A DNA stretch of 33,209 bases from Deltaproteobacteria bacterium. Lineage in GTDB: Bacteria; Myxococcota_A; Polyangia; Polyangiales; Polyangiaceae. How positions within the stretch are numbered: position 1 is the stretch's first letter; every line of letters begins with the position of its first letter. The position numbers were made by a program, and so were the translations under genes. The notes under the pieces are model-generated. The model saw only the letters and a program-made list of their open reading frames with translations, did no database searches and was not told the DNA's origin. Below are positions 13,353 to 33,209 of the stretch, piece by piece. The DNA is taken from the NCBI GenBank assembly GCA_016875405.1, contig VGRJ01000043.1, forward strand, positions 1-33,209, in the 5' to 3' direction.

Positions 13353-15890
13353 ATGAAGACACAGAGACGCTTGGTGAAGGTGGGGCTCGCCCTCGCCGCG
13401 ACGCTCGCGGTCGCGTGCGGAGGCGAGCAGACGAATCCGTCGCCGGTCCTGCCGAAGGCCGACGTCGAGATCGTGGTCGACGACTACGGCGTCCCCCACA
13501 TCTTCGCCAAGGACGACGAGGACCTGTTCTTCGCCTACGGCTATCAGCTCGCCACGGACCGCATGCTTCAGCTCGATCTCTTTCGGCGCTTCTCGCAAGG
13601 GAGGCTGTCGGAGGTGCTCGGCAAGGAGGGCCCCGGATCGGCGGGCGAGGACGCGCTCGCCGACGATCGCTTCGCGCGCATCTTCAACTGGAAGCACTGG
13701 GGCAAGCTCGACGCCGAGCTCATGAAGGCCGAGGAGCCCGAGCACTACGCGCTCACGGGCGCCTGGGTCGCCGGCATCAACCAGCGCGTCGCCGAAATCC
13801 GCTCGGGAGCCGCGCCGCGCCCCGCGGGTTTCGGAGCCGACGAGCTCGACTACCTGCCGGAGGAATGGACGACGGAGGACGTCTACGTCATCCAGAAAAT
13901 GGTCGGCTTCGGGCTCGATCAGACGATCCAGTTCGAGGTGTTCGTCACCTTCACGAAGCGCTTCGCGCCCGAGGTCCTCGACGCGGTCGAGCTCTTTCGG
14001 CCCGCCCGCGAGGTGTTTGCGATGGGCCCGCCGGCGCTCAAGTCGGCCCCCGCCGCGAGGCAGCCGAAGGCCTCGCCGCTCGCGCCGACGAAGCTCCCGC
14101 CGATCGCGAAGAACCCGGCCTGGCTCCGCTGGGGCAAGGCGCGGCCGCTCGGCAGCAACAACTGGGCGATCGACGGACGCCACACCGCGAACGGGCGCCC
14201 GCTCCTCGCGGGGGATCCGCACCTCGGCTACGACTTCAGCGGCATCACCTACGGCGTTCACCTCTCGAGCACCGAGGGCTCGGGCACCTACAACGCCGCG
14301 GGCTTCTCGTTCGTCGGCGCGCCGGGGATCTTCGCGGGCCACAACGAGAAGGTCGCCTGGACGGAGACCTCGTCGTTCGCGGACGTGATGGACATGTGGT
14401 CGGTCGAGAAGAAGGACGGAAAATTCCGGCTCGGCGACGAGCTCGTGGAGCCGGTGCTGCGCGAGGAGACGATCGCGGTCAAAGGCGAGGCGCCCGACGT
14501 CATCACCGTGGCGGACGTCCCGGGCTATGGCGTCATCATGCCGTCGTCCCTCGTCGGGTCGCCGATCCCCATCGCGGGCTCGGGGCGCGAGGTGCTCATC
14601 GGCTGGACCGGATTTCGCGCGCGACCGGCTCGCTTCTTCCGAGAGCTGAACCGAGTGCAGTCGGTCGACGCCTTCGATGAGGCGGTCAAGCGCTTGCCCG
14701 AGATGAGCTACAACTTCGTCGCGGCCGACGCGCAGGGGATCGCCTACCGCGTCGGGATCGAGGTGCCGAAGCGCGCGACGCTCGCCGAAGGTCGCGAGCC
14801 CTTTTGGACGATGAACGGCGACGACGCGACCTCGTTCTGGCCGGGCGGGTTCCTTGATCACGAGACGCTCCCCCACTCGCGCGGCGGCGAGCGCGGCTTC
14901 ATCGTCACGGCGAACAACGACCCGTTCGGGTTCACCGCGAACGGTCGCGTCGACGACGATCCGTTCTACTACGGAGCGCTCTTCGTCCCGGGCTGGCGCG
15001 CGGCGCGCATCGAGGACGAGGTGAAGCGCCTCACCGCCGAGAAGCCCAAGGGCGTCGAGCTCGCGGACATGGAGAAGCTTCAGATGGATGTGCGCGACAA
15101 CCTCGCGGACGACCTCCTGCCGGTGCTCCTCGACGTGTGGCAGAAGTCGGCGGGCAAGCCCGAGCTGGCCGATCTCCGCGAGCGCGCCGAGCTCGCGACC
15201 CTAGTCACGTCGCTCGAGGCCTGGGACCGCCGCCTCACGCGCGACTCGAGCGCCGCGGTGATCTTCCACGCGTTCTCGCACCTGCTCGCGAAGCGCGCAC
15301 TCGAAGACGACTTGAGCCCCCTGCTCTTCCAGATCGTCATGAACAGCGCGCCGATGTACCTGCTCAAGATCGGCATGCTCGCGGCGCGCGGCGATTACCC
15401 GAATGGCGACGCGGTGCTGCAAGAGGGGCGTGAACGAGTCATCCTGCTCGCGCTCGCCGACACCGCCGATTTTCTGCTCGAGCGCTTCGGCGAGGTGGCT
15501 CCGTCGGCGTACCGCTACTCGGACCTGCGCCTCTCGAGCATGGAGCACGCATACGGCCGCGGGATCCCGCTCGGCAAGGTCCCCTCCGATGGCGGCGAGG
15601 CGACAGTCAACGTCGCGCAGAGCTCCTTCCTCGAGGACGGCAAGCCCGCCAGGGAGTGGATCTCGCACTGGGGTCCGATCGAGCGACAGGTCTTCGAGTT
15701 CGACGCCGACGGCACGCCGCGCGCTCGCTACAACACCGCGCTCGGAAACTCGTCCGATCCGAAGAGCCCCTTCCACGAACACGCGCTGCAGGACTGGGTC
15801 GACGGGAATTACCGCGACATGCCCTACCGCCGCGCCGAGGTCGACGCGCACGCCTATGAGCGCAAGCTCCTCGAGGGGGTGAAGCGATGA
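13353..15890 (+). CDS. Penicillin acylase-family Ntn-hydrolase, predicted lipoprotein
   Basis: An 845-residue N-terminal-nucleophile amidase of the penicillin/acyl-homoserine-lactone acylase family. These enzymes are exported as precursors and cut themselves into alpha and beta chains. The signal peptide ends at Cys22 (VACGG). The alpha region opens with VEIVVDDYGVPHIFAKDDEDLFFAYGYQLATDRM. A Pro/Ala/Lys-rich linker (about 230-255) precedes the cleavage site. Ser268 in LGSNNW is the predicted new N-terminal nucleophile, followed by GDPHLGY. The conserved TANNDPF segment, which carries the oxyanion Asn, lies further on. The ATG at 13353 has GAGG upstream. The substrate (beta-lactam, acyl-homoserine lactone, N-acyl amino acid or other amide) cannot be decided from sequence. 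The stop overlaps the next start (ATGA). Confidence 0.92.
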   Translation: MKTQRRLVKVGLALAATLAVACGGEQTNPSPVLPKADVEIVVDDYGVPHIFAKDDEDLFFAYGYQLATDRMLQLDLFRRFSQGRLSEVLGKEGPGSAGEDALADDRFARIFNWKHWGKLDAELMKAEEPEHYALTGAWVAGINQRVAEIRSGAAPRPAGFGADELDYLPEEWTTEDVYVIQKMVGFGLDQTIQFEVFVTFTKRFAPEVLDAVELFRPAREVFAMGPPALKSAPAARQPKASPLAPTKLPPIAKNPAWLRWGKARPLGSNNWAIDGRHTANGRPLLAGDPHLGYDFSGITYGVHLSSTEGSGTYNAAGFSFVGAPGIFAGHNEKVAWTETSSFADVMDMWSVEKKDGKFRLGDELVEPVLREETIAVKGEAPDVITVADVPGYGVIMPSSLVGSPIPIAGSGREVLIGWTGFRARPARFFRELNRVQSVDAFDEAVKRLPEMSYNFVAADAQGIAYRVGIEVPKRATLAEGREPFWTMNGDDATSFWPGGFLDHETLPHSRGGERGFIVTANNDPFGFTANGRVDDDPFYYGALFVPGWRAARIEDEVKRLTAEKPKGVELADMEKLQMDVRDNLADDLLPVLLDVWQKSAGKPELADLRERAELATLVTSLEAWDRRLTRDSSAAVIFHAFSHLLAKRALEDDLSPLLFQIVMNSAPMYLLKIGMLAARGDYPNGDAVLQEGRERVILLALADTADFLLERFGEVAPSAYRYSDLRLSSMEHAYGRGIPLGKVPSDGGEATVNVAQSSFLEDGKPAREWISHWGPIERQVFEFDADGTPRARYNTALGNSSDPKSPFHEHALQDWVDGNYRDMPYRRAEVDAHAYERKLLEGVKR

Positions 15891-16867
15891 GCCGCGGGCA
15901 GACGTGGGCCCTCGTGCTCGGGCTCACGAGCCTCGTCGGCTGCTCGTCGAGCGAGCCTGCGCCGCCACCCGAGCCGGATCCGTTCGCACCCCCGGCGGAG
16001 GATGCAGGCTTCCAGCTGAAGATGGAGGTCGAGGCGCCTGCGGCGAGCGAGATCTGGAAGTGCAAGATCGACTACCTGCCGCCGACGCTCGGCTTCTTCG
16101 CCGCGAACCGCGTCGCGTCGCGCCAGAGCGATTTCATCCACCACATGGACGTGATGGCGCTCGCGTTCACACCGCTCGAGCTCGAGCCCGGCATCTACGA
16201 CTGCGACGCGATCTACTACGCGAACTCCGCGCTCATGGAGAGCGGGATCTTCCTCTACGCGAGCCAGGTACCCGAGCAGCAGATAGAACTCCCTCCGGGG
16301 ACGGCGGCCATGATCCCGTCGAAGATGAAGTACATGCAGGAGGTCCATTACGTGAACACGTCGAGCGCGCCGGTGAACGTGTTCTCGCACGTGAACGTGC
16401 ACACCATCCCGCCGCTCGAGGTCACCGACAGGATCTGGGGCGGAGTCGTACGCGACGCACACATCGCGGTTCCGCCGCTGTCGAAGCACGTCGAGTGGAC
16501 GCGCTGCATCATGAACCAGGACGTGGAGGTGCTCTTCCTCTCGTCGCACACGCACCGGCTCGGCAAGAAGGTCACCGTCGCGCGCTACGACGGCAAGGCG
16601 ACCGGCCCCGTCTTCTATGAGAACGACGACTGGCACGCGCCAAAGCTCGAGCATTTTGCGCCGCCGATGTCGCTGAAGAAGGGCGACGGGCTCGAGTTCC
16701 ACTGTCACTTCGAGAACGACGGAGCCGAGACCGTGAACTGGGGCTTCGCGGCGGACGACGAGATGTGTCAGCTCGGCCTCGTGTTCACGCCGTCGAGCAC
16801 CACGGCCGCGTGCGAGGTGGTCGAGACCTCGGACGGCGTGATCGACACGAGCGGCACCGGCAAGTAG
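15887..16867 (+). CDS. Type II copper monooxygenase-like lipoprotein (PHM/DBM fold)
   Basis: A 326-residue lipoprotein (ideal lipobox LVGC, Cys19) resembling the ascorbate-dependent copper monooxygenases peptidylglycine alpha-hydroxylating monooxygenase (PHM) and dopamine beta-monooxygenase. All six copper ligands are present with family spacing. The first site is His85, His86 (FIHHMDVM) and His154 (QEVHYVN). The second is His221, His223 (SSHTHRLGKK) and Met293 (DEMC). From ligand to ligand the spacing is 68, 67 and 70 residues, against 64, 70 and 70 in rat PHM. The rat residues that hold the substrate carboxylate (Arg240, Asn316, Tyr318) align here with Ser, Gln and Gly, so the substrate is probably not a peptidylglycine. 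The ATG overlaps the acylase stop (ATGA), which indicates coupled translation. The gene ends with TAG. Confidence 0.88.
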   Translation: MSRGQTWALVLGLTSLVGCSSSEPAPPPEPDPFAPPAEDAGFQLKMEVEAPAASEIWKCKIDYLPPTLGFFAANRVASRQSDFIHHMDVMALAFTPLELEPGIYDCDAIYYANSALMESGIFLYASQVPEQQIELPPGTAAMIPSKMKYMQEVHYVNTSSAPVNVFSHVNVHTIPPLEVTDRIWGGVVRDAHIAVPPLSKHVEWTRCIMNQDVEVLFLSSHTHRLGKKVTVARYDGKATGPVFYENDDWHAPKLEHFAPPMSLKKGDGLEFHCHFENDGAETVNWGFAADDEMCQLGLVFTPSSTTAACEVVETSDGVIDTSGTGK

Positions 16868-21183: not shown

Positions 21184-21582
21184 TCACCCCGCGGGCTCCT
21201 CGACGATCGCCGCCACCGCGTCGACGAAGGCGCGCGCGCGCTCGAGGTCCTCGGCCGCATCGTCCACGGTGAACGTCGCCGCCGCGTCGTAGTCGGCATC
21301 GTTCCGATCGCCCGCGATTTGGCGAAGCGTGCGTGCATGGACCGTGGCGAGGAGACCTGTCCGTACGAAGTGCTCGTTCACGAGCGAGCGGACGCCCTCG
21401 TGCGTTCGAGCCGCGAGTCCGACCGTCGCGAGGAGCGCACATGCGGCGTGAAAGACGGCGTAGTACGAGCGACCGACAGCGTGCCTCGCGAAGCCGGCCC
21501 GAGCCAGCGTCTCGGCGGCGGCGAGGGTGTCGCGAGCGAGCGCGAGCGATTCGACGGCGCCAACCGGTGTACGCGGGCTCAC
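21184..21582 (-). CDS. HEPN-domain protein, putative toxin partner of the adjacent nucleotidyltransferase
   Basis: A 132-residue HEPN-fold protein of the UPF0332 type. Visible features are the helix GRSYYAVFHAACALLATVGL, then THEGVRSLVNEHFVRTG, and RNDADYD near residues 93-99. In HepT-type toxins the RNase site is R-x4-6-H; here Arg93 and Asn94 are present, but a Tyr (98) takes the place after R-x4 and no His follows. The GTG start overlaps the TGA stop of the upstream nucleotidyltransferase gene (GTGA), the usual coupling of an MNT/HEPN pair. These pairs act as toxin-antitoxin systems in which the MNT protein AMPylates HepT. Activity as a toxin here is inference. Confidence 0.85.
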   Translation of the reverse strand: MSPRTPVGAVESLALARDTLAAAETLARAGFARHAVGRSYYAVFHAACALLATVGLAARTHEGVRSLVNEHFVRTGLLATVHARTLRQIAGDRNDADYDAAATFTVDDAAEDLERARAFVDAVAAIVEEPAG

Positions 21583-21893
21583 AGGGCCACCCCGTCGCGA
21601 CGGAGCTCGGCGGCGAGCCCCGCACCGAGCTCGTCCGGCCCCGTGCCACGGACGAGCGGCTCGATGCGCACCCGGAGCTCCAGCTCGACATCGAACGCCA
21701 TGTCCTGCACCTCGCGCCGCTCCGCGCGCGTCACGTCACGAATGACCACGTACAGATCGACATCGCTGTCCTCGTCGCCCTGACCTCGGGCACGCGAACC
21801 GAACAGCGTCAGCGCGGCGAGACGGCCTCCGAAGCGCGCCTCGAGCGACGCTCGAAAGTGCGCGACGGCGAGGCGTTCGAGGGGCGAGAGCAT
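21579..21893 (-). CDS. MNT-type nucleotidyltransferase, putative antitoxin
   Basis: A 104-residue minimal nucleotidyltransferase. It carries the complete GS-x10-D-x-D motif: Gly32-Ser33, then Asp44-Val-Asp46 (FGSRARGQGDEDSDVDLYVV). MntA-type antitoxins with this motif transfer AMP to a tyrosine of their HEPN partner. The start ATG at 21893 puts the motif at the usual distance from the N-terminus (MLSPLERLAVAHFRASLEARFGGRL). The frame is open for a further 600 bases upstream, but that sequence overlaps the Uma2 gene in another frame and looks non-coding. The HEPN gene follows with a 4-base overlap. Confidence 0.87.
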   Translation of the reverse strand: MLSPLERLAVAHFRASLEARFGGRLAALTLFGSRARGQGDEDSDVDLYVVIRDVTRAERREVQDMAFDVELELRVRIEPLVRGTGPDELGAGLAAELRRDGVAL

Positions 21894-22017: not shown

Positions 22018-22629
22018 TCAAGGCGCGCGATCACCGAGCGGAGCCCCCTCCCCTCGCGGCAGGAAGAGCCTTCCGACGGGCAGCTCGATCGCGTCGAAGG
22101 GGGCGATGCGCGGACTCGCCGTCTCGTCCCATGCGCCGAGACGCAGCCAGCGTCGCGGGGCATCGGGCGACGCCATGAGCTCGTACGCCTCGACGACCCG
22201 CGCCTCCGGATCGACCAGCCAGGAGAATGGCACGCCGTGCGCCGCGTAGAGCTCGGCCTTCCACACCCGGTCGTGCGCCGCGTTCGACGGCGACACGATC
22301 TCGCACACCCAGTCGGGCACCACCTCGAGCGGGCGCACGTTCGGAACCGCCAGCCGCTCGCGACGCCAGCCCGCGAGATCGGGCACGACGAGATCGCCCG
22401 ACGCGAACCGCACGTCCACCTCGGGGAAGAGGTACCAGCCGCCGGGTCCACCGTGGCCGTGCAGGTCGTCGAACGGACCTCCGAGGAGCGCACCGAGCAC
22501 CCGCTGGATTTTCGCGTGCGCCGGCATCGGCCGCGGCTGGACGAGGATGCGCTCGCCCACGATCTCGGCGCGCACGCCCTCCCCGAGCGCGAGCCACTCC
22601 GCGAACAGCGCCTCCCGCGTCTTCCCCAT
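22018..22629 (-). CDS. Uma2-family (DUF820) PD-(D/E)XK nuclease-like protein
   Basis: A 203-residue Uma2/DUF820 protein. The family shows a restriction-endonuclease-like fold; its biological role is not established. Typical segments are FPEVDVRFASGDLVVPDLAGW (the first acidic residues), then PDWVCEIVSPSNAAHDR with the conserved E and S, and VPFSWLVDPEARVVEAYEL. The start ATG at 22629 gives a normal N-terminus (MGKTREALFAEWLALGEG). An in-frame ATG at 22683 is an alternative. No ribosome site is obvious. It lies 124 bp upstream of the MNT/HEPN pair on the same strand, although the two are not obviously coupled. Confidence 0.85.
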   Translation of the reverse strand: MGKTREALFAEWLALGEGVRAEIVGERILVQPRPMPAHAKIQRVLGALLGGPFDDLHGHGGPGGWYLFPEVDVRFASGDLVVPDLAGWRRERLAVPNVRPLEVVPDWVCEIVSPSNAAHDRVWKAELYAAHGVPFSWLVDPEARVVEAYELMASPDAPRRWLRLGAWDETASPRIAPFDAIELPVGRLFLPRGEGAPLGDRAP

Positions 22630-22766
22630 CCGTGAACGGTACCACCCAGCTCCCGGCATCGCCGGCTCGAAGTCGTGGATCATGCCCCCTGGTCGTCACG
22701 AGCGGGGATGCGGTTTCACGCGAGGGACGCGTGGCAAGGCTGCAGAGCGGAGGGAGAGCGCCGCGC

Positions 22767-24155
22767 TCACTTCTTCGTGCAGGCGTTCATCGCATTGACG
22801 AACGCGGTGAGGCGGCCTTCGGTCATCGACGTCGGGTAGATGTACACGCCCAGGTATTCGCCGTCCTTCACCTGACCACACTCCTTCTTCGTGATGGATC
22901 CGATCGTCGCGGTGCTCGTTGCGGCCTCCCCGAAGTTCACCATCGGGGCGCCACCCGGCTTGCCATCGTCGAGCCAGGCACCGTACTGATCGGCGACGGT
23001 GTACTGGCTCGAGTAGAGCTCGGCAAAGTGGGTTCGGACACCCTTCGATGCACCCCACACCCAGCCGTTGCCGCGGTTCGTCATGTAGATGTAGCCGCGC
23101 CCGGGCACGCCATCCCGGCACGAAGCGATGCGGGCCGTCTCGGTCGACTTGACGTGGTTCGAGCTCGTGTCGTCGTACGCCCACTTGCTGCCGCTCGGGT
23201 GGTGGACGGTGCCGTTGTAATTGCACAGCTTCCACTCGGGGTTTTCCTTGGAGACGCGCTCGTAGACCCAGCAGCCGTTGCTCGCCGGGACCCCCTTGGC
23301 TCCAGGCGTCCCGAGGCCCGAGTAGAGCGCGAACGTCGCGATGAGCCGCTTCTTGCAGGCGATGGGCGGGCCCTCCGCAGCGACGCGCACCGCGTTGTAG
23401 GCGCGCGTCTAGCGGTCGAGCCAGCCTTCCGGCGCGAGCAGCTTCCAGCGATCGTCGCCGCCGCAAGCGACGCTCCCGTGACCGAGCAGGGCACCCATCC
23501 GGACCGGGTCACGCAGGTGCGCCTTCCTCATCGTGGCGTTCGCGAGGACGTCGGCGGTGAGCTGGATCCCGAACGCGGGCTCGCTCGCGAGCTTCTCCGC
23601 ACAAGCGGCCACATCGAGGTCGGGCCGCAGCTTCGTACACAAGGAGGGCGCGAGCGCGAGGCCGGGGTAGGTCGGGCTCTCGTCACAAGCCCCCGATGCT
23701 TCGAGCGCCGCGTAAACCGAAGCCCGCGAGACCTTCCCGGCATCGGCCGCGGTCGTGACCCAACCCGCGAAGCGCTCCTCGCACCGCTTGATCGATGCCG
23801 GATCGCCAGTCTCGGGGGCGCGATGCGCGATGACGATGAAGTGGTTCAGAATCTGCCAGTCGAGGCCGGCGCAGCGGTAGTCGTGCAGCGTCGACGTCGG
23901 CGGCTCCCAGACGCCTCCGCCCGGAGCCGGCTCGGGCTGAGGCTCGGCCGCCCCTCCTGCACCGCCCTCGTTCGCGGTCGGATCGTCGACGGGATCGACC
24001 TCGCCATCGTTGGCGGTGCCGCTCAGGCCTCCGGTGCCGGAAGGCTCGGGCAATCCCGGAACGAGGCGCCCATCGGCCTCACCGCAACCGAACGCCGCGC
24101 CGCAGGCCAGCGCCCCAATAAGCAGCAGCCTCGAGAGCCTCGAATCGATGGTCAT
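22767..24155 (-). pseudogene. Lipoprotein gene of unknown function interrupted by one in-frame TAG codon
   Basis: The reading frame from ATG 24155 to the stop at 22767 spans 463 codons and is broken only by TAG at 23409-23411. Upstream of it, residues 1-248 have a lipoprotein signal (Cys24, FGCG), an acidic and Gly/Pro-rich linker, and a helical Cys-containing domain ending GWLDR. After the TAG the same frame continues TRAYNAVRVAAEG without a gap to MNACTKK. The downstream part lacks its own signal peptide and has no convincing start (only a GTG at 23390). One base change from CAG or TGG would explain it. TAG also ends the copper monooxygenase gene as a normal stop, which argues against general recoding. 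Family not recognised. It may be a fresh pseudogene, a sequencing error or readthrough. Confidence 0.8.
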
Positions 24156-24592
24156 GCCGCGCCTTTCCATGAAGGGCGAGGACGGAACCACCGACACCGG
24201 GCGAACCCGCGCAGCCTCACCTCGGCCCGCTCGATGTCAGGGTGCGCTCCCGGCTCGCAGGCCCCTCGCGGCGAGAAGTTCACGTCCGCGTGCGGGCTCG
24301 TGTTCACGGTGGGTTCATGACTCCAGTGCTTCCCCGAGCGCTCGCCTTGGTGCCACTCCTCGGGTCCGTCGTCGGCGGCTCGGACGCGAGCTCATCGAGC
24401 GGCAGCGGCGCATCGGGTGCGACCTCCGGCAACACGAGCACCTCGACGACGGCGTCGCGACGATCCGCGATGCATTGCTGACCTACTGTCAGTGACTCGC
24501 GCGGCGCGGGCTCGGCCCTCGCTTGCAAGCCGTACGCTCCACGTCGCCACGTGCATGCGTCGACGGCGTACGCTACCCTGCCAGGAGATTCC
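24156..24592. other. 437-bp divergent intergenic region
   Basis: This gap separates two divergently transcribed lipoprotein genes and must hold their promoters. Its middle contains a short reading frame (24317-24481) that looks like the start of another lipoprotein. An AGGAG ribosome site for the right-hand gene is at its end. No RNA gene or strong palindrome was seen. Confidence 0.45.
24317..24481 (+). pseudogene. Possible remnant of a lipoprotein gene
   Basis: A 54-residue frame starts with a signal-peptide-like MTPVLPRALALVPLLGSVVGG and continues as a Ser/Gly/Thr linker (SDASSSSGSGASGATSGNTS), just as myxobacterial lipoproteins do, then stops. Where the lipidated Cys is expected there is Gly (VVGGSD, not VVGCSD). 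It may be the eroded start of a lost lipoprotein gene. No good ribosome site is seen, and a chance reading frame cannot be excluded. Confidence 0.3.
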
Positions 24593-25456
24593 ATGACGCG
24601 TCCCGAGGATGCTCCTTCGCCAGGCAAGGCCCGTCGCTCGCTCGGGGTGCTGGCGCTCGCGGCGAGCGGGTTCATCGTCACCATGAGCGGCTGCATGCGG
24701 CCCGTGTCGTCGGTGCCGCAGGTGACCGAGCGCGCCTTGCGGACGGTCGGCGAGACGGTCGAGGCCAGGCGAGCCCGCCCCTCCCTGACGGCGGCGTTCC
24801 GACGAGCCGAACGCCCTGATGGTTCGGTCGAGCTCCGCCTCGGCGTGACGTGGCTGTCTTCCTGCACGCGAACACGGCAGGTACTCGTCGAGAACACGAC
24901 CGTGACCCGCGACTCGGAGCCCGACACGGCAGGCAACGTGCTCGCGACCGGCTTCGGCGCGGCGTTGCTCGGAAGCGGCGCAGTTGCGATCGGTCATTTC
25001 GGTGCCACCCTGCCCTCGCAAGCGACCGACTGCCGACCCGACGCGGGCTCCGAGTGCTTCGATCCCGCTGCGGCCGCCGTCGGCGTCGGCGTCACGCTCG
25101 CGACCCTCGGTGCGATCGCGCTCGGTGGTGGAATTTACGGCCTCGTCGCGAGGCCGGAGCAGACGGTGGCGGTCGACGAGCGGGTGGTCGAGACGGTGGA
25201 GCCGGAGCAGCGCTGCGGAGAGCCCGTCGAGCTGCACGATCTCACGATCGGCATCGAGCCAACCCACCCGGGTGTCGCCGACGCGCGGGTCGACGGCAGC
25301 GGCGCCGCGACGCTGATCCTTCCGGCAGGGTTGCCGCCGAGCAAGGTGGTGGTCCGCGGCGTCCCGACACACCTGGAAGCCAGGGTGGACGAGGGCGCGG
25401 CGCTCGGCTGGACCTCTCCGACGCGCTCGACCGACGCGACCGAGGTGGTCCGATGA
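24593..25456 (+). CDS. Lipoprotein with two hydrophobic segments, first of a paralogous pair
   Basis: A 287-residue predicted lipoprotein of unknown function. The signal segment ends MSGC (Cys34). Two long hydrophobic, Gly/Ala-rich stretches lie at about residues 115-137 and 158-186, separated by a short Cys-containing loop (DCRPDAGSECFD). A C-terminal region follows, with RCGEPVELHDLTIGI and DARVDGSGAATLILP. AGGAG lies 6 bases before ATG 24593. The next gene overlaps by 4 bases (ATGA) and has the same architecture: lipobox Cys at the same residue 34, two hydrophobic stretches with a Cys loop between them, and an ARVD-SG-A motif. A lipid anchor plus two membrane-type helices is an unusual topology. 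Confidence 0.82.
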   Translation: MTRPEDAPSPGKARRSLGVLALAASGFIVTMSGCMRPVSSVPQVTERALRTVGETVEARRARPSLTAAFRRAERPDGSVELRLGVTWLSSCTRTRQVLVENTTVTRDSEPDTAGNVLATGFGAALLGSGAVAIGHFGATLPSQATDCRPDAGSECFDPAAAAVGVGVTLATLGAIALGGGIYGLVARPEQTVAVDERVVETVEPEQRCGEPVELHDLTIGIEPTHPGVADARVDGSGAATLILPAGLPPSKVVVRGVPTHLEARVDEGAALGWTSPTRSTDATEVVR

Positions 25457-26367
25457 CCGCACGAGCCTCGGGCTTGCGAGCAACCCGGCACACCCTCGCC
25501 CGTCAGCTGGCGCGAGCCCTCGCGTGCTTCCTCGTCAGCACCGCGCTCGGCTGCGCGAGCACCCAGTCCGTGACGCGGGAGGCCGGCCGAACCAGGGTCA
25601 GCGGCACCTTCGAGATCCCGCCGGACGGAGGACTCGCCGCATCGCTCGAGAGTTGGCCCAACGAGCTCGCGGTCCGGCTCACCCTCCGGCGCGACTGCGT
25701 CCGCATCGAGGCCGGCAGCGTCCAGCGCGCGACCGCGACGACGACGCGCCCCGACCCCGCGGCGACGTGGCTGCAGCTTGCGTCCGGCGTGACGCTCGCG
25801 GTGTCGTCCGGGCTCGTGCTCGGGAACGCGATGCCCGACGCCGACCCTCACTGCATCCGCACGGAAGACGGGTGCGTGTCATCGCGCGGTGGCGCCGTGG
25901 TGGGCGGGACGCTCCTCGCGCTGACCGCGGTCCCGCTGCTCGCGTCGGCGGTCCACGACCTCGCGACGGGCGATCGCACCACGGTGAGCGTCACCTCGGA
26001 GCCCTACGACCTGCGCCAAGAGCGCCAGGCGTGCGGCGCGGCGAAGGACCTCGAAGGCTCGATGGTCCTCCTCGACGACGAGGTGCTCGGCTTCCCCTCG
26101 GCGCGCGTCGACGCGAGCGGGTTGGCGCGGCTGCGCCTCGCTCCACCGCCCGCCGGCGCAGTGCCGCGAACCCGGCGGCTCGTGCTCTCGGAGCCATCCG
26201 CCGGGGCCGCGCGGCTCGCCTCCCGCGACCTCGTGCTCGCACGCGTGGAGCTCCCCGGCAGCGCCTTACCGCCGCGCGCCAGCGCCGCAGACCCTAGCGT
26301 GCCCCGAGCCGACGTACCCGCTCCGAGCGAGGCCCGCGAGGCTTCGCCGTTCAGCCCGAGTCGTTGA
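25453..26367 (+). CDS. Lipoprotein with two hydrophobic segments, second of a paralogous pair
   Basis: A 304-residue predicted lipoprotein (Cys34, ALGC), paralogous to the preceding gene. Hydrophobic stretches are at about residues 104-127 and 145-170, with HCIRTEDGC between them. These are followed by QACGAAKDLEGSMVLL and SARVDASGLARLRL, matching the same positions in its neighbour. It differs by a Pro/Ala/Ser-rich C-terminal tail of about 45 residues. The ATG overlaps the stop of the first gene (ATGA), so the pair is cotranscribed and probably coupled. The last 17 bases overlap the end of the convergent cysN gene. Function unknown. Confidence 0.82.
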   Translation: MTARASGLRATRHTLARQLARALACFLVSTALGCASTQSVTREAGRTRVSGTFEIPPDGGLAASLESWPNELAVRLTLRRDCVRIEAGSVQRATATTTRPDPAATWLQLASGVTLAVSSGLVLGNAMPDADPHCIRTEDGCVSSRGGAVVGGTLLALTAVPLLASAVHDLATGDRTTVSVTSEPYDLRQERQACGAAKDLEGSMVLLDDEVLGFPSARVDASGLARLRLAPPPAGAVPRTRRLVLSEPSAGAARLASRDLVLARVELPGSALPPRASAADPSVPRADVPAPSEAREASPFSPSR

Positions 26368-27646
26368 CCAGCATCGTCGCCGCGACGGTCTCGCCGTCCG
26401 CCGGATCGACGAGCAGCGCGCTGCCGAGCGCCCGGTCCTGCGCGTAGGAGGTCGCGAGGATCGGCTCGCCGAGCACGACCTGGAGCCGACCGAGGTCGTT
26501 CAGCTTGAGCTCGTCGGCCGGGGTGGTGGCGCCCGTCGAGACGTCGAGGCGATGCGAGACGCCGACGAGCTTCGCCTGCACCCGTCGGCTCTGGTGTTTG
26601 AGCCAGAGGCGCATCCCGGCGCGTGCCGGGCGGGTCGCGAGCCAGGCCGCGTCGAGGGTCACGCTCTGCCGCAACTGGAGCCCGTCAGGAAGGGCCGCGC
26701 CTTGCACGACGTAGGCGCCCCGCCCTGCGTCGACGTCGTCGGCGAGGCTCACGACGATCGACTCGCCCGACTCCGCGAGAGCCTGGCCGCCGACGTCCCC
26801 GATGACATGGCGGTCGATCCGCGTGACCGAGCTCTCCAGCATTCCGGGAGCGACGAGGACCCGATCGCCGACGGCCATGCCTCCGCCGACGAGCCGACCG
26901 GCGAGGCCGCGGAAGGTCGCGAAATCCTCGCGCTGCGGACGGATCACCCACGCCACCGGCAGCACGCCCACCCCGAGCGTCGAGGGCGCGACGCGCACGG
27001 TCTCGAGTGACTCGAGCACCGCGGGACCGTCGTACCAAGGCATCCGCGTCGAGCGCTCCACCACGTTGTCGCCGTCGAGCGCACACACCGGGATGAAGCG
27101 CAGCCGCGTCTCCCATGGGAGTGCCTCGACGTGCCGCCGCGCCTCCGCGGCGAGCGACTCGAAGCGGGCCTCCTCGAAGCCGACGCGGTCCATCTTGTTC
27201 ACGACCACGAATACGACGGGCACGCGCAAGAGCGCGGTGATCGCGAGGTGCCGGCGCGTCTGCTCCGTGAGACCTCGCTCGGCGTCGATGAGGACGATGG
27301 CGGCCTCGGCTTGCGACGCACCGGTCACCATGTTGCGCGTGTACTGGACGTGCCCGGGTGTGTCCGCGAGCACGAAGCGGCGGCGCGGCGTCGCGAAGTA
27401 GCGCCAAGCGGCGTCGATGGTGATGCCCTGCTCTCGCTCGGCGCGCAGGCCATCGGTGACGAGGGCGAGCTCGGTGCGCGAGAAGCCACGGCGGGCGCTG
27501 ACCTCCTCGATGTGCGCGAGCTGGTCGCGCATCAAGGCGCGCGCGTCGAGCAGGATGCGGCCGATCAGCGTGCTCTTGCCGTCGTCGACGCTGCCCGCCG
27601 TCGCGCAGATCAGCGTGCCGAGCGTGGGTGGGGTGACGTCGCTCAT
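26351..27646 (-). CDS. cysN: Sulfate adenylyltransferase subunit 1 (GTPase)
   Basis: A 431-residue EF-Tu-like GTPase subunit of ATP sulfurylase. GTP hydrolysis by CysN drives formation of adenosine 5'-phosphosulfate (APS) by CysD. The GTPase motifs are G1 GSVDDGKST (residues 18-26), G2 ITID, G3 DTPGH (95-99) and G4 NKMD (150-153), followed by two beta-barrel domains. It ends where CysN ends, with no fused APS kinase (CysC). It follows cysD with TGATG overlap. The 3' end overlaps the convergent lipoprotein gene by 17 bp. Confidence 0.96.
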   Translation of the reverse strand: MSDVTPPTLGTLICATAGSVDDGKSTLIGRILLDARALMRDQLAHIEEVSARRGFSRTELALVTDGLRAEREQGITIDAAWRYFATPRRRFVLADTPGHVQYTRNMVTGASQAEAAIVLIDAERGLTEQTRRHLAITALLRVPVVFVVVNKMDRVGFEEARFESLAAEARRHVEALPWETRLRFIPVCALDGDNVVERSTRMPWYDGPAVLESLETVRVAPSTLGVGVLPVAWVIRPQREDFATFRGLAGRLVGGGMAVGDRVLVAPGMLESSVTRIDRHVIGDVGGQALAESGESIVVSLADDVDAGRGAYVVQGAALPDGLQLRQSVTLDAAWLATRPARAGMRLWLKHQSRRVQAKLVGVSHRLDVSTGATTPADELKLNDLGRLQVVLGEPILATSYAQDRALGSALLVDPADGETVAATMLVNDSG

Positions 27647-28563
27647 CAGAAGTAGCCCTCGCGCTTGCGGTCTTCCATCGCAGCCTCGCTAAACTGGTCG
27701 TCGGCGCGCGTCGCGCCCCGCTCGGTGACGTCGGCCGCGACGATCTCGCCGATCACCTCGTCGAGCGTCGACGCCGTCGAGCGCACCGCACCGGTGCACG
27801 TCGCGTCACCGACCGTCCGGAAGCGCACCGAGGTGCGAAACGGCACCTCGCCCGGTCCCGGCGCCATGACGTCGGTCACGGCGTAGAGCATCCGACCGCG
27901 CTCGAACACCTCCCGCTCGTGGGCGAAGTAGATCGAGGGGAGCGCGAGGCCTTCGTCAGCGATGTACTGCCACACGTCGAGCTCGGTCCAGTTCGAGATC
28001 GGGAAGACCCGCAGGTGCTGCCCGCTCCGGACGTGGAGGTTCAACACCTGCCAGAGCTCGGGTCGCTGCTTGCTCGGATCCCATTGCCCGAGCTCGTCCC
28101 GCACGCTCACGATGCGCTCTTTCGCGCGCGCTCTGTCCTCGTCGCGGCGGGCTCCGCCGAAGAGCACGTCGAAGCGATGCTCGTCGACCGCCTCGAGCAA
28201 GGTCACCGACTGCAGGCGGTTGCGGCTCGCCCGCGGGCCGGTTTCGTCCTGCACCGTGCCGCGTGCGATCGAGTCCTCGACCTTCGCGACGATGAGCCGC
28301 TCCCCGAGCGCGGCCACCTTCGCGTCTCGGAAGGCGAGCACCTCGTCGAAGTTCTGGCCAGTGTCGACGTGCAAGAGCGGAAAAGGAAACCGCCCCGGGC
28401 GAAACGCCTTCTCGGCGAGGCGCAGAAGGACGATCGAGTCCTTGCCGCCCGAGAACAGAAGGGCGGGTCGCTCGCGCTCGGCGCTCGCCTCGCGAAGCAC
28501 GTGGATGGCCTCGTCCTCGAGGCGCCTCAGGTGGAGGTTGTTGCCGGTGGCCACGCACTCCAT
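27646..28563 (-). CDS. cysD: Sulfate adenylyltransferase subunit 2
   Basis: A 305-residue catalytic subunit of ATP sulfurylase, of the PP-loop ATP pyrophosphatase superfamily. The PP-loop is SGGKDS (residues 38-43). Conserved CysD segments follow: HVDTGQNFDEVLAFRD, FGGARRDEDRARAKERI, FPISNWTELDVWQYI and the C-terminal EAAMEDRKREGYF. The length matches the family. It is the first gene of a minus-strand cysDN operon and is divergent from cysH with only 53 bp between the start codons. A palindrome lies in that gap. Confidence 0.97.
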   Translation of the reverse strand: MECVATGNNLHLRRLEDEAIHVLREASAERERPALLFSGGKDSIVLLRLAEKAFRPGRFPFPLLHVDTGQNFDEVLAFRDAKVAALGERLIVAKVEDSIARGTVQDETGPRASRNRLQSVTLLEAVDEHRFDVLFGGARRDEDRARAKERIVSVRDELGQWDPSKQRPELWQVLNLHVRSGQHLRVFPISNWTELDVWQYIADEGLALPSIYFAHEREVFERGRMLYAVTDVMAPGPGEVPFRTSVRFRTVGDATCTGAVRSTASTLDEVIGEIVAADVTERGATRADDQFSEAAMEDRKREGYF

Positions 28564-28565
28564 TG

Positions 28566-28585
28566 TAGAAGACAGCTGTCTTGTA
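28566..28585. promoter_or_regulatory. Palindrome in the cysD-cysH divergent promoter
   Basis: AAGACAGCTGTCTT (28569-28582) is a perfect 14-bp palindrome, and two more base pairs match on each side after one mismatch (28566-28585). It begins 2 bases before the cysD start codon on one side. On the other side it overlaps TTGTAA (28581-28586), which is 18 bp from TAGACT (28605-28610), a fair -35/-10 pair for cysH. It is well placed as an operator for both sulfur operons. The regulator is not in this window. Confidence 0.55.
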
Positions 28586-28610
28586 AAGCAACCTTGGCGT
28601 CGGTTAGACT
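28581..28610 (+). promoter_or_regulatory. Candidate cysH promoter giving a leaderless mRNA
   Basis: TTGTAA at 28581-28586 and TAGACT at 28605-28610 are spaced by 18 bp. The cysH ATG is only 6 bases after the -10 element, where transcription itself would be expected to start. No ribosome site fits in between, so a leaderless message is likely if this promoter is used. Confidence 0.4.
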
Positions 28611-28616
28611 CGCACC

Positions 28617-29372
28617 ATGACGGTCGCGAGCGAGGAGACCCCCTCGGAGGAGGCGCCCTGGAGCGCGTGGATCGACTGGTCGGTCGCGCGGTTCGGGGCG
28701 TCCCTGAGGCTCGCGTGCAGCCTGAGCGTGGAGGACACGCTGCTCGTCGACGCGCTTGCCGAGAGCGCCGCCCGCCGCGGCCTCGCTCGCAGCCATGCGC
28801 CGCAGGTGTTCGTCCTCGATACCGGCCGGCTTCACGAAGAGTCGTACCGGGTCCTCGCGTCGCTGCGTGAGCGTTACGACCTCACGTTCGACGTCCGAGC
28901 GCCGGCGACGCGGAGCCTCGAGGACCTCGTGCGAAACCGGGGACCGCTGTCGTTTTACGACTCGGTCGAGGCGCGCCGCGAGTGCTGCGGGATCCGCAAG
29001 GTCGAGCCGCTCGCGCGCGCGCTCGACGGCGCCTCTGCCTGGATGACCGGCCAGCGGCGGGCGCAGGCGGTGACACGGACGAGTCTCCTGCCGCTCGAAC
29101 GCGACGACGCCCACCGCGGCATCGCCAAGGTGAACCCCCTCGCGCTCGTGACCGACGAGGCGCTGTGGGCCGAGGCCGAGCGCCGCAGCGTCGTCATCCA
29201 CCCGCTGCATCGCCAGGGCTACCCGTCGATCGGCTGCGCGCCATGCACGCGGGCCGTCGCGCCGGGAGAGGACGCGCGCGCGGGGCGCTGGTGGTGGGAG
29301 GATCCCGCCCACAAGGAGTGCGGGCTCCACGTCGCGCGCTCCAATCCCCAGACGGGGGGGAAGCCGACATGA
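28617..29372 (+). CDS. cysH: Assimilatory adenylyl-sulfate (APS) reductase
   Basis: A 251-residue reductase that converts activated sulfate to sulfite using thioredoxin. The four iron-sulfur Cys that mark the APS-reducing type are present: Cys123-Cys124 (RECCGIRK), Cys207 and Cys210 (GCAPC). The redox Cys235 lies in KECGLH. Those [4Fe-4S] Cys are absent in PAPS-type CysH, so the substrate should be APS. This agrees with the absence of an APS kinase in the cluster. The start ATG at 28617 is the first possible one. The stop overlaps the next start (ATGA). Confidence 0.95.
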   Translation: MTVASEETPSEEAPWSAWIDWSVARFGASLRLACSLSVEDTLLVDALAESAARRGLARSHAPQVFVLDTGRLHEESYRVLASLRERYDLTFDVRAPATRSLEDLVRNRGPLSFYDSVEARRECCGIRKVEPLARALDGASAWMTGQRRAQAVTRTSLLPLERDDAHRGIAKVNPLALVTDEALWAEAERRSVVIHPLHRQGYPSIGCAPCTRAVAPGEDARAGRWWWEDPAHKECGLHVARSNPQTGGKPT

Positions 29373-30010
29373 GCCGCACGCCGGGCCTTCCGCTCGTGCT
29401 CCGCCTCGAAGGACGCCGCGTGCTGCTCGTCGGCGCGGGCACCATTGCGGCCGGCAAGCTCGCCGCGCTGCTGCGGGCTGGCGCGCGGGTCCGCGTGGTC
29501 GCCCCTGCCGTCACCGAGGAGGTGGCTCGCCTCGCCGAAGATGCCGGCGCCGAGGTCGTCGTGCGCGAGGTGACGGAGAGCGACCTCGACGACGTGCGCT
29601 TCGTCGTGACGGCGACGCCCCACGCGGTGTCGCGGCAGGTTCGCGGCTGGGCCGACGCGCGGCGGCTCCTCTTGCTCGCGGTGGACGACGTGGCCGCGAC
29701 GGACGCGCACTCGCCCGCGGTGTTCGAGCGAGGCGGCGTGACGATCGCGCTCTCGAGCGACGGTCGCGCCCCGGCGCTGGTTGGCTTTCTGCGTCAGCTG
29801 CTCGAGGCGGCGCTCCCCAGCGAGGAGGAGCTAGCCGAGTGGCTCCGCCTCGCCGACGACGAGCGCGCTATCTGGAAGGCCGAGGGGCTCCCGCTGGGCG
29901 AGCGTCGAAGGCGGCTCGTCGGGCGGCTCTGCGAACAGGGTGGAGCCTGCCGCCACGTCGCGCCGAGCGAGGCTCCCGACCCCACGGGAGCCGCCGAGGT
30001 CCAGCCGTGA
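29369..30010 (+). CDS. Precorrin-2 dehydrogenase / sirohydrochlorin ferrochelatase (siroheme synthase N-domain)
   Basis: A 213-residue protein corresponding to the N-terminal part of CysG (Met8p-like). It oxidises precorrin-2 with NAD and may insert iron to give siroheme, the cofactor of the nearby sulfite reductase. It has the Rossmann motif VLLVGAGTIAAGKLAALLRAGARVRVVAP, then VRFVVTATPHAVSRQV, the VDDVAATDAHSPAVFERGGVTIALSSDGRAPALVGFLRQLLE segment, and a helical tail. The methyltransferase domain found in fused CysG is absent, so uroporphyrinogen-III methylation must come from another gene outside this window. It is coupled to cysH by a 4-base overlap. Confidence 0.92.
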   Translation: MSRTPGLPLVLRLEGRRVLLVGAGTIAAGKLAALLRAGARVRVVAPAVTEEVARLAEDAGAEVVVREVTESDLDDVRFVVTATPHAVSRQVRGWADARRLLLLAVDDVAATDAHSPAVFERGGVTIALSSDGRAPALVGFLRQLLEAALPSEEELAEWLRLADDERAIWKAEGLPLGERRRRLVGRLCEQGGACRHVAPSEAPDPTGAAEVQP

Positions 30011-30024
30011 GCGCGCCCGCATAA

Positions 30025-31002
30025 ATGACTTCTCTCAATTGCATACTCGGACTCCTCGGGGCCTGGTTTGCGCTCAACATGGGCGCGTCAGGGCTCGCAC
30101 CGTCGTTCGGCGCGGTGCTCGGCGCGCGGGTGGTCGAGGCTCCTCGCGCGCGCTGGCTCTTCGCGGGCTTCGTGATCCTGGGCGCGCTCGTGCTCGGCCC
30201 CACGGTCGCGAAGACGCTCTCGTCGGGGATCGTGCCGGTCGAGCGCTTCGACGCTCGCGCGACCCTGGTCGTTCTGCTGGCAACGAACGTGGCGATGCTG
30301 GTCGCGAACCTCGCGGCGATCCCGCAGTCGACGTCCTGGGTGATGGTCGCGGCGCTCGTCGCGCTCGGCATTCAGCAGGGAGCGCTGCTGACGCGCACGC
30401 TCACCCATCGGCTGCTGCCGGCGTGGCTCCTCCTGCCGCTCGCATCGTTCGGCTTGAGCGCGCTCGTCATGCGCGCGCTGTATCCCCTTCGCGGCGCGAA
30501 GAGCTTCGAGGTCCACGGCTGGCTCTTGCGCCACCGCCGCCTCGCTCACGGCCTCGCGCTGGCGAGCGCGTGCTACGTCGCGTTCGCGATCGGAGCAAAC
30601 AACGTCGCCAACGCCGTCGCACCACTCTCGGCCGCGGGCGCGCTCGAGGTCGGAACGGGGATGCTGGTCTTGTCGCCCCTGTTCGGGGTCGGCGCGCGGA
30701 TGTTCTCGGGGCCCGCTGACACGATCGCCCGCGACATCGTGCCGCTCGGCCTCGTCGCCGCGACGGCCTGCAACGCGATCGTCGCGAGCCTGCTCGTCGT
30801 CGCCTCGAGCCTCGGCCTGCCCCAGTCGCTCGTTCAGCTGAACGCTGCGGCGGTGCTGGGCGTCCTCCTGGTGAAGGAGGGTCGGTCGGGGCTCTTCACC
30901 GGCAAGAAGATGCGGTCGATGCTGGCGTTGTGGGCCATCACCCCTTCGCTGGCGGCGCTCCTCACCTTCGTGGCGCTCGAGCTCTCGGAGCGCTGGCGAT
31001 GA
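30025..31002 (+). CDS. PiT-family permease, probable sulfate transporter (CysP-type)
   Basis: A 325-residue polytopic membrane protein of the inorganic phosphate transporter family. The second half has the signature GANNVANAVAPLSAAGAL. The equivalent in the first half is ALNMGASGLAPSFGAVLGA, which resembles the NIGASG form of CysP sulfate permeases and not the GANDVAN form of true phosphate transporters. About ten hydrophobic helices are visible. It is located between the siroheme gene and cysK, with which it overlaps (ATGA), so uptake of sulfate is the likely job. Specificity is inferred from context and signature. Confidence 0.87.
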   Translation: MTSLNCILGLLGAWFALNMGASGLAPSFGAVLGARVVEAPRARWLFAGFVILGALVLGPTVAKTLSSGIVPVERFDARATLVVLLATNVAMLVANLAAIPQSTSWVMVAALVALGIQQGALLTRTLTHRLLPAWLLLPLASFGLSALVMRALYPLRGAKSFEVHGWLLRHRRLAHGLALASACYVAFAIGANNVANAVAPLSAAGALEVGTGMLVLSPLFGVGARMFSGPADTIARDIVPLGLVAATACNAIVASLLVVASSLGLPQSLVQLNAAAVLGVLLVKEGRSGLFTGKKMRSMLALWAITPSLAALLTFVALELSERWR

Positions 31003-31949
31003 CCGACGGGCGAACGGCACCGCGCGCAACCATCGCCAGCAGCGTGCTCGACCTCATCGGGCGGACGCCGCTCGTGAGGCTCGACCGCATCGCGCCGAAA
31101 GACGGCGCCGAGATCGTCGCCAAGCTCGAGGGCATGAACCCCGGCGGCAGCGCGAAGGACCGCGTCGCCTACCGCATGGTGCTCGCCGCCGAAGCCGAGG
31201 GCCGCCTCGGGCCCGGCAGCACCGTGATCGAGGGGACGAGCGGCAACACCGGCATCGGGCTCGCGATGGTGTGCGCGGCGCGCGGCTACCGCTGCGTGAT
31301 CGTGATGCCCGACTCGATGAGCCTCGAGCGCATCTACCTCGTGCAGCGCCTCGGCGCCGAGGTCGTCTTGACGCCTGCCAAGGACGACCTGGCGGGCGCG
31401 GTGCGCAAGGCCGAGGAGCTCGCCGCGAAGACGCCGGGCGCGTTCCTGCCGCGGCAGTTCGAGAACGCGAACAACCCGGGCGTGCACGCGACGACGACGG
31501 CCGAGGAGCTCCTCGAGGCGACGGGCGGCCGGATCGACGCGTTCGTTGCGGGGGTCGGCACGGGCGGGACGATCACCGGGGTTGGTCGGGTCTTGCGCGA
31601 GCGCTGCCCGGGCGTGTGCATCGTCGCGGTCGAGCCCGACGGCTCCGCGGTCCTCTCGGGCGAGCGGCCCGGACGCCACAAGATCCAGGGGATCGGCGCG
31701 GGCTTCGTGCCGAAGGTGCTCGATCGGGGCGTGATCGACGCGATCGTCCGGGTGCGCGACATCGAGGCCTTCGAGGCGATGAAGCGGCTCGGCGCACTCG
31801 AGGGGATCAACGCCGGGATCTCGGCCGGCGCGGCGGTGCACGTCGCGCTCGAGGTCGCATCACGCCTGCGGCCGGGACAGCGCGTCGTCACGGTCTTCCC
31901 CGACACGGGCGAGCGCTACCTGAGCTTGCAGCACTACTTCGAATTCTGA
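30999..31949 (+). CDS. cysK: Cysteine synthase (O-acetylserine sulfhydrylase)
   Basis: A 316-residue PLP enzyme that makes cysteine from O-acetylserine and sulfide. The PLP lysine is Lys53 in NPGGSAKDR (most family members have SVKDR). Further motifs are EGTSGNTGIGLAMV, MPDSMSLER, the phosphate-binding GVGTGGTITG, GIGAGFVPK, GINAGISAGAAVHVA and PDTGERYLS. The length matches CysK. The ATG overlaps the stop of the permease gene (ATGA). The last gene of the plus-strand operon cysH-siroheme-permease-cysK, it is convergent with the sulfite reductase gene, 40 bp away. Confidence 0.96.
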   Translation: MTDGRTAPRATIASSVLDLIGRTPLVRLDRIAPKDGAEIVAKLEGMNPGGSAKDRVAYRMVLAAEAEGRLGPGSTVIEGTSGNTGIGLAMVCAARGYRCVIVMPDSMSLERIYLVQRLGAEVVLTPAKDDLAGAVRKAEELAAKTPGAFLPRQFENANNPGVHATTTAEELLEATGGRIDAFVAGVGTGGTITGVGRVLRERCPGVCIVAVEPDGSAVLSGERPGRHKIQGIGAGFVPKVLDRGVIDAIVRVRDIEAFEAMKRLGALEGINAGISAGAAVHVALEVASRLRPGQRVVTVFPDTGERYLSLQHYFEF

Positions 31950-31989
31950 AGCCCGGGCCGTCGTCACGCGCTCGCGGGAGCCTGGCGGC

Positions 31990-33209
31990 TCAGCTCGCGC
32001 ACTCGCCCTCCGAGGTCTCGCCCCGGAACGCTTCTTGATCGCCGATGTCGACGAAATCCTCGGGGTTGGCCGACTCGCCGTCGATCGCCTCGAGCGGCGC
32101 AATCACCGCCCGCAGCTCGGCGGTCGACGCCCGCGCGAGGTACTCGTCGGCGCGCTCGCCCTCCTGGCGGTGCTCCTCGTACGAGGCGACGAGCGCCCGC
32201 ACGACGTCGACGACGCGGCGCGCCGGCACCTTGCCGACGATGCGGCCGAACGTCGCATCGCCCGCGACCGCCGCCCCCGCATAGACCGTGTAAAACGGCG
32301 CGGCGCGGCCCGCGATCTTGCGCATCCCGCCTTGCAAGCCGATCGGCGCGACGTGGTGGAGACCGCAGCCGTTCGGGCAGCCGCTGATCCGGATGTGGAG
32401 ACCGGCCGCGCGGTCGACGAAGGCACGGTCGGCGCGGAACGCCTCGCCGAGGAGCTGGGCCGCACCGCGCGACTGCGTGACGGCGAGCTTGCAGGTCTCG
32501 GCGCCCGGGCAGCTGCCGACGTCGGCCACGCTGCCTTCGTCGGGTTCGCCCAGCGAGAGCGCACGGAGGTGCTCGTAGAGCGGAGCGATGTCCTCGTCGC
32601 GCACCCAATGGAAGGCGACGTTCTGCGAGGGTGTGAAGCGCACGGCGCCGTCCGCGTAGGCGCGCGAGAGTGCGGCGAGCGCGCGGAGCCGGCCCACGGT
32701 GACGTCGCCGAGCGGCAGCACGATCGACACCAGCGAATAGCCAGCCTGCCGCTGCGGACGGACGTTCGTGCGGCGGAAGCGCTCGCCACGCTCGTCGCCG
32801 AGGACAGGGAGCGCGCGAGGCAAGAACCCCGGACCTCGTGGTGCGTCCCCCTCGAGGAGCGCGAGCAGCGCGTCGCGCGTCGGCGCCGGCGCGCGGCTGA
32901 CCGGCGGCGCGCTGCGGACTGGGGGCGCCTCGGGGTCGAACGGCAAGGTCGGGGCGCCGGCTGCGCGCACCGCCGCAAGCTCGACCTCGACGCGCTCGCG
33001 GAAGGCGTCCCACCCGAGCTGCCGGACGAGGAACTTGAGCCGGTTCTTCTGGCGATGAATCCGGTCACCCTCGCGGTCGAAGACGCGGAGCACCGCCTCG
33101 GCGTACGCGAGGATGTCGTTCGCGGGCACGAACGATGCGAGCTCGTGGCCCGAGCGGCAGAGGATCGCCGTGCCGCCGGCGACGGTGAGGCGAAAGCCGC
33201 GCTTCCCCT
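31990..33209 (-). CDS. Siroheme-dependent sulfite/nitrite reductase, partial (5' end outside window)
   Basis: The C-terminal 405 residues of a siroheme/[4Fe-4S] hemoprotein reductase that reduces sulfite to sulfide (or nitrite to ammonia). The cofactor Cys pattern is complete: C-x5-C (SCPGAETC) and C-x3-C (GCPNGC). The conserved SQNVAFHWV segment with the substrate-side basic region and VLPLGDVTVGRLRALA are also present. The frame is open to the right edge with in-family sequence (GFRLTVAGGTAILC then VPANDILAYAEAVLRVF), so the start lies outside. Location beside cysH, cysD and the siroheme gene favours sulfite, but the ferredoxin nitrite reductases look similar. It is convergent with cysK. 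Confidence 0.9.
   Translation of the reverse strand, partial: GKRGFRLTVAGGTAILCRSGHELASFVPANDILAYAEAVLRVFDREGDRIHRQKNRLKFLVRQLGWDAFRERVEVELAAVRAAGAPTLPFDPEAPPVRSAPPVSRAPAPTRDALLALLEGDAPRGPGFLPRALPVLGDERGERFRRTNVRPQRQAGYSLVSIVLPLGDVTVGRLRALAALSRAYADGAVRFTPSQNVAFHWVRDEDIAPLYEHLRALSLGEPDEGSVADVGSCPGAETCKLAVTQSRGAAQLLGEAFRADRAFVDRAAGLHIRISGCPNGCGLHHVAPIGLQGGMRKIAGRAAPFYTVYAGAAVAGDATFGRIVGKVPARRVVDVVRALVASYEEHRQEGERADEYLARASTAELRAVIAPLEAIDGESANPEDFVDIGDQEAFRGETSEGECAS

Follow-up and report, generated by a model that had tools for sequence, protein, structure and literature searches.

The window (the whole stretch of DNA that was analyzed, 33,209 nucleotides of contig VGRJ01000043.1) contains a lipoprotein gene whose reading frame is broken once, by an in-frame TAG. 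The question that the locus raises is what this TAG is: a recent nonsense mutation, an error in the assembly, or a codon that the cell reads through, restarts after or has reassigned.

The interrupted gene and its neighbors

The original prediction of a single in-frame TAG splitting an otherwise intact lipoprotein gene was confirmed by translation and by homologues that are single open reading frames (L002 and L006). The gene lies at 22767..24155 on the minus strand (the strand was absent from the prediction) and forms one frame of 462 sense positions, from the ATG at 24155, with GAAAGG upstream, to the TGA at 22769-22767. Its sole interruption is the premature TAG at codon 249 (23409..23411, minus strand); no second stop or frameshift was found in the gene. 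A signal peptide with a lipobox (MTIDSRLSRLLLIGALACGAAFGC) was called by eye at 24084..24155 (minus strand). The frame is more than chance, because intact homologues align across the TAG junction in one frame, the right half when shuffled was stop-free in 0.44% of trials, and GC3 was coding-type in both halves (left = 0.83, right = 0.89).

On the minus strand, a HEPN protein (PF05168) adjoins a nucleotidyltransferase of the MNT type (FGSRARG...DSDVDLYV), at 21184-21582 and 21579-21893. A Uma2 protein is encoded near this pair at 22018-22683, and the pair stands beside the broken lipoprotein gene. On the plus strand, two lipoprotein-like ORFs lie next to each other (24551-25456 and 25468-26367). 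They are similarly laid out, had no Pfam match and may be related.

Homologues and the residue at the stop

Homologues were searched for in 59 relatives and then in 108 genomes of the same family. Two were full-length, both from other genera of the family: L002 (genome G029), with 66% identity to the window protein over residues 42-460, and L006 (genome G128), with 50% identity over residues 19-461. L002 comes from a Myxococcales metagenome-assembled genome, on contig CANJCO010000018.1, which it shares with L012. Both are lipoproteins encoded by one uninterrupted open frame; neither is divided into two proteins with an independent start for the second, which was the arrangement named beforehand as evidence against an interrupted gene.

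The counterparts of codon 249 in these two homologues are TAC and TAT, both Tyr, so one base change suffices for TAG. Glutamine or tryptophan had been expected at the position, and for the close homologues that expectation was wrong. Distant homologues of the N-terminal domain have W or F there; the residue was aromatic (W, F or Y) in all homologues covering the site, and TAG at codon 249 was found in no homologue. The four congeneric genomes lack the gene, which left the site without a counterpart there, and on account of this absence the gene is regarded as accessory and dispensable in the genus. An origin from a phage or plasmid was rejected, as no relative of the gene was found in the viral contigs or plasmids searched.

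Domain organization of the protein

Lipoproteins that consist of the N-terminal domain only (L003, L004, L005, L008, L010 and L011) are homologues of the left half, with matches to L003, L004, L008 and L010 at E values of 1e-9 to 1e-16, and L010, L003 and L008 match PF01464 (SLT transglycosylase domain). From this homology and from predicted helices at 119-261, a degenerate SLT/lysozyme-like domain was placed at 23409..23912 (minus strand), roughly codons 82-261, and the stop at codon 249 truncates it. It resembles SLT lytic transglycosylases through its homology to lipoproteins matching PF01464, and differs from them in having no Pfam match, a substituted catalytic residue and an added C-terminal module. 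P0002, P0004 and L006 themselves did not match the Pfam profile of PF01464. The motifs TES, GPMQV and YNAG are present in the N-domain-only lipoproteins that match PF01464; the position of the catalytic Glu is occupied by Ser in the window protein and L002 and by Thr in L006, and YNAG is lost in all three proteins. The N domain is probably non-catalytic, because the catalytic Glu is replaced and YNAG is lost. A structure model of the whole protein (pLDDT 54) gave weak matches to lytic transglycosylases and goose-type lysozymes. The model has a helix at 245-261, so the stop falls within the final helix predicted for the N domain, about 12 residues before the domain border.

The C-terminal module (22770..23372, minus strand), delimited by sequence comparison, has about 200 residues, conserved cysteines, a YDDT motif and no assigned function, and occurs in 7 of 317 genomes of the class. 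It is also found on lipoproteins with other N-terminal parts (L007, L100/L009, L104 and L105), and proteins with this module only have their own signal peptides where the start is covered. Its sequence had no match in Pfam or the PDB. A model of the module (pLDDT 69, four of five models <60) gave weak barrel-fold matches, glycosidases included (Z ≤ 6.7, Foldseek E ≥ 0.16); these fold matches are too weak to use as evidence.

Age of the stop and selection

A relative-rate test of the window gene vs. L002, rooted with L006, counted 15 window-specific and 15 L002-specific changes in the right half, and 8 and 14, respectively, in the left half. The right half is thus not evolving faster than that of the intact relative L002. 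NG86 dN/dS between the window gene and L002, with dS near saturation, was about 0.21 for the left half (0.249/1.185) and about 0.28 for the right half (0.243/0.861). Among single substitutions, 4.2% in the right half and 2.7% in the left half create a stop. If the branch is assumed to have accumulated about 0.5 neutral substitutions per site, a rough calculation predicts some 24 stops in a gene that was fully neutral throughout it. Because no stop was found beyond the first, the same calculation would confine decay to about one-eighth of the branch at most. The stop is therefore a recent event or an error, as the right half has neither accelerated nor acquired a second disabling change.

A recent nonsense allele as the probable explanation

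Of the explanations listed in the original prediction, a very recent nonsense mutation is the best supported, given intact homologues with Tyr and the lack of accelerated decay. The locus is, with good probability, a recent nonsense allele (pseudogene) of an accessory lipoprotein gene, in which TAG arose by one base change from a Tyr codon. This change, in a gene for a two-domain surface lipoprotein, would have occurred recently in the lineage of this genome. Translation would then end after codon 248, and the product would be a lipoprotein in which the final N-domain helix is incomplete and the C-terminal module is missing entirely. The allele, whether fixed or still segregating, would most likely have lost its function only lately. 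We infer that living cells of the organism do carry the TAG and that the shortened lipoprotein is non-functional. One in-frame stop in a conserved, accessory gene with intact orthologues is what is seen in bacterial nonsense pseudogenes, from which the window gene has no notable difference; the case looks ordinary and of a known kind, and not like a new way of reading DNA.

Possible assembly error or mixed strains

The TAG could also have been introduced by sequencing or assembly, or by merging several strains into one consensus, with living cells carrying a sense codon and an intact gene. That the gene is intact and constrained apart from one base would fit this, as would the fragmentation of the assembly (218 contigs) and its sister-like contig C140. 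No other error was seen in the lipoprotein gene, however, and base errors are rare in polished short-read contigs, which counts against an error if the assembly was made in that way. Sequencing error, proposed at the outset, therefore keeps a modest place as an unlikely explanation, and nonsense mutation is better supported.

Contig C140 (L061) was 84% identical to positions 24509-32624 of the window, a CysN-like gene included. It passes on this flank into other sequence, and the lipoprotein gene is not there. C140 would be either a contig of a sister species in the bin or a duplication.

Readthrough, restart and recoding as unlikely alternatives

In-frame stops are widespread in bacterial genes and persist mostly on the time scale of population polymorphism; purifying selection acts on genes that have them, and readthrough was favored for many (Belinky et al., 2021; PMC7918605). 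Functional readthrough of the UAG, yielding a small amount of full-length lipoprotein, would agree with a right half conserved up to the C terminus and with the view of these authors that such cases are common, but a recent mutation accounts equally well for the conservation, no homologue shares the stop, and no suppressor tRNA was found among 37 tRNAs. The window gene is like their cases in the purifying selection after the stop and unlike them in that their trusted stops are shared between species, whereas this one is in one genome only; it fits their class of short-lived polymorphisms. Readthrough, disfavored by the tRNA search and by the homologues, is accordingly improbable. It is less probable still that the UAG would act, from its place in the final helix of the N domain, as a leaky switch, giving mostly truncated lipoprotein and a little of the full-length two-domain protein.

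The 37 tRNA genes found in the assembly all had an assigned anticodon and none had CTA, in a census that is incomplete (Tyr, Asn and Ile-GAT tRNAs are missing from the assembly). PylS was absent from the assembly, where the best hit was below the cut-off (21.9 vs. 178 bits). A suppressor tRNA and PylS were rejected on these results, and the proposed check for amber suppressor or pyrrolysine tRNA genes left both readings unsupported.

Restart at GTG 23390, by which the right half of a split gene would be translated separately, is very unlikely. This GTG (23388..23390, minus strand, codon 256) is the sole in-frame GTG start soon after the stop by sequence inspection; no Shine-Dalgarno was found upstream (ctagacgcgcgcctacaacgcg) and no signal peptide after it, in agreement with the earlier description of a right half with neither a signal peptide nor a good start. 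The C-terminal module does occur without an N domain of the window type in L007, L100/L009, L104 and L105, and the stop is near the domain border, but proteins with the module only bear signal peptides of their own, and the stop falls some 12 residues short of the border, within a helix. Homologues encoded as two proteins were not among the close relatives, and proteins with the C-terminal module only, found elsewhere, have their own signal peptides. If restart did occur at this GTG, a module that is otherwise exported would be left in the cytoplasm as a fragment.

TAG terminates 13 of 92 ORFs (~14%; 152 kb of the genome's sequence) in a count from mechanical ORF picking with the interrupted gene included, and a copper-monooxygenase-like gene at 15887-16867 is a clear case of a TAG-terminated gene; TAG appears to be a normal stop codon in this bacterium. 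The release-factor models TIGR00019 and TIGR00020, which had been used in a genetic-code screen that cautions that in-frame stops of pseudogenes imitate reassignment (PMC8629427), matched prfB in the assembly and did not match prfA. The congeners G001 and G004 carry prfA (RF1). The prfA region of G004 has its counterparts at two contig edges, the end of C101 and the start of C150; C101 carries the flank on the far side, and C150 opens with the first 18 codons of prfA, MLPIEKLESLTRRHDELE (L085:1-54, G000:C150). RF1 is not lost, and the remainder of its gene sits in the assembly gap between C101 and C150, because C150 begins inside the 5' end of prfA. With prfA cut by a contig end, RF1 was reported missing by the profile search in a genome rated 99% complete. 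Genome-wide reassignment of TAG after RF1 loss, for which the prfB-only search result could be cited, was rejected and deserves next to no credit, given the start of prfA at the edge of C150, RF1 in the congeners and the ORFs that end in TAG.

Significance

A seemingly absent RF1 together with an in-frame TAG could pass for a new genetic code, and inspection of contig ends dispelled that here, which is the lesson for method. By itself the nonsense allele is of little importance, concerning one broken accessory gene in one uncultured myxobacterium-like genome. The C-terminal module that it would remove forms a small family for which Pfam has no model, and may merit a name.
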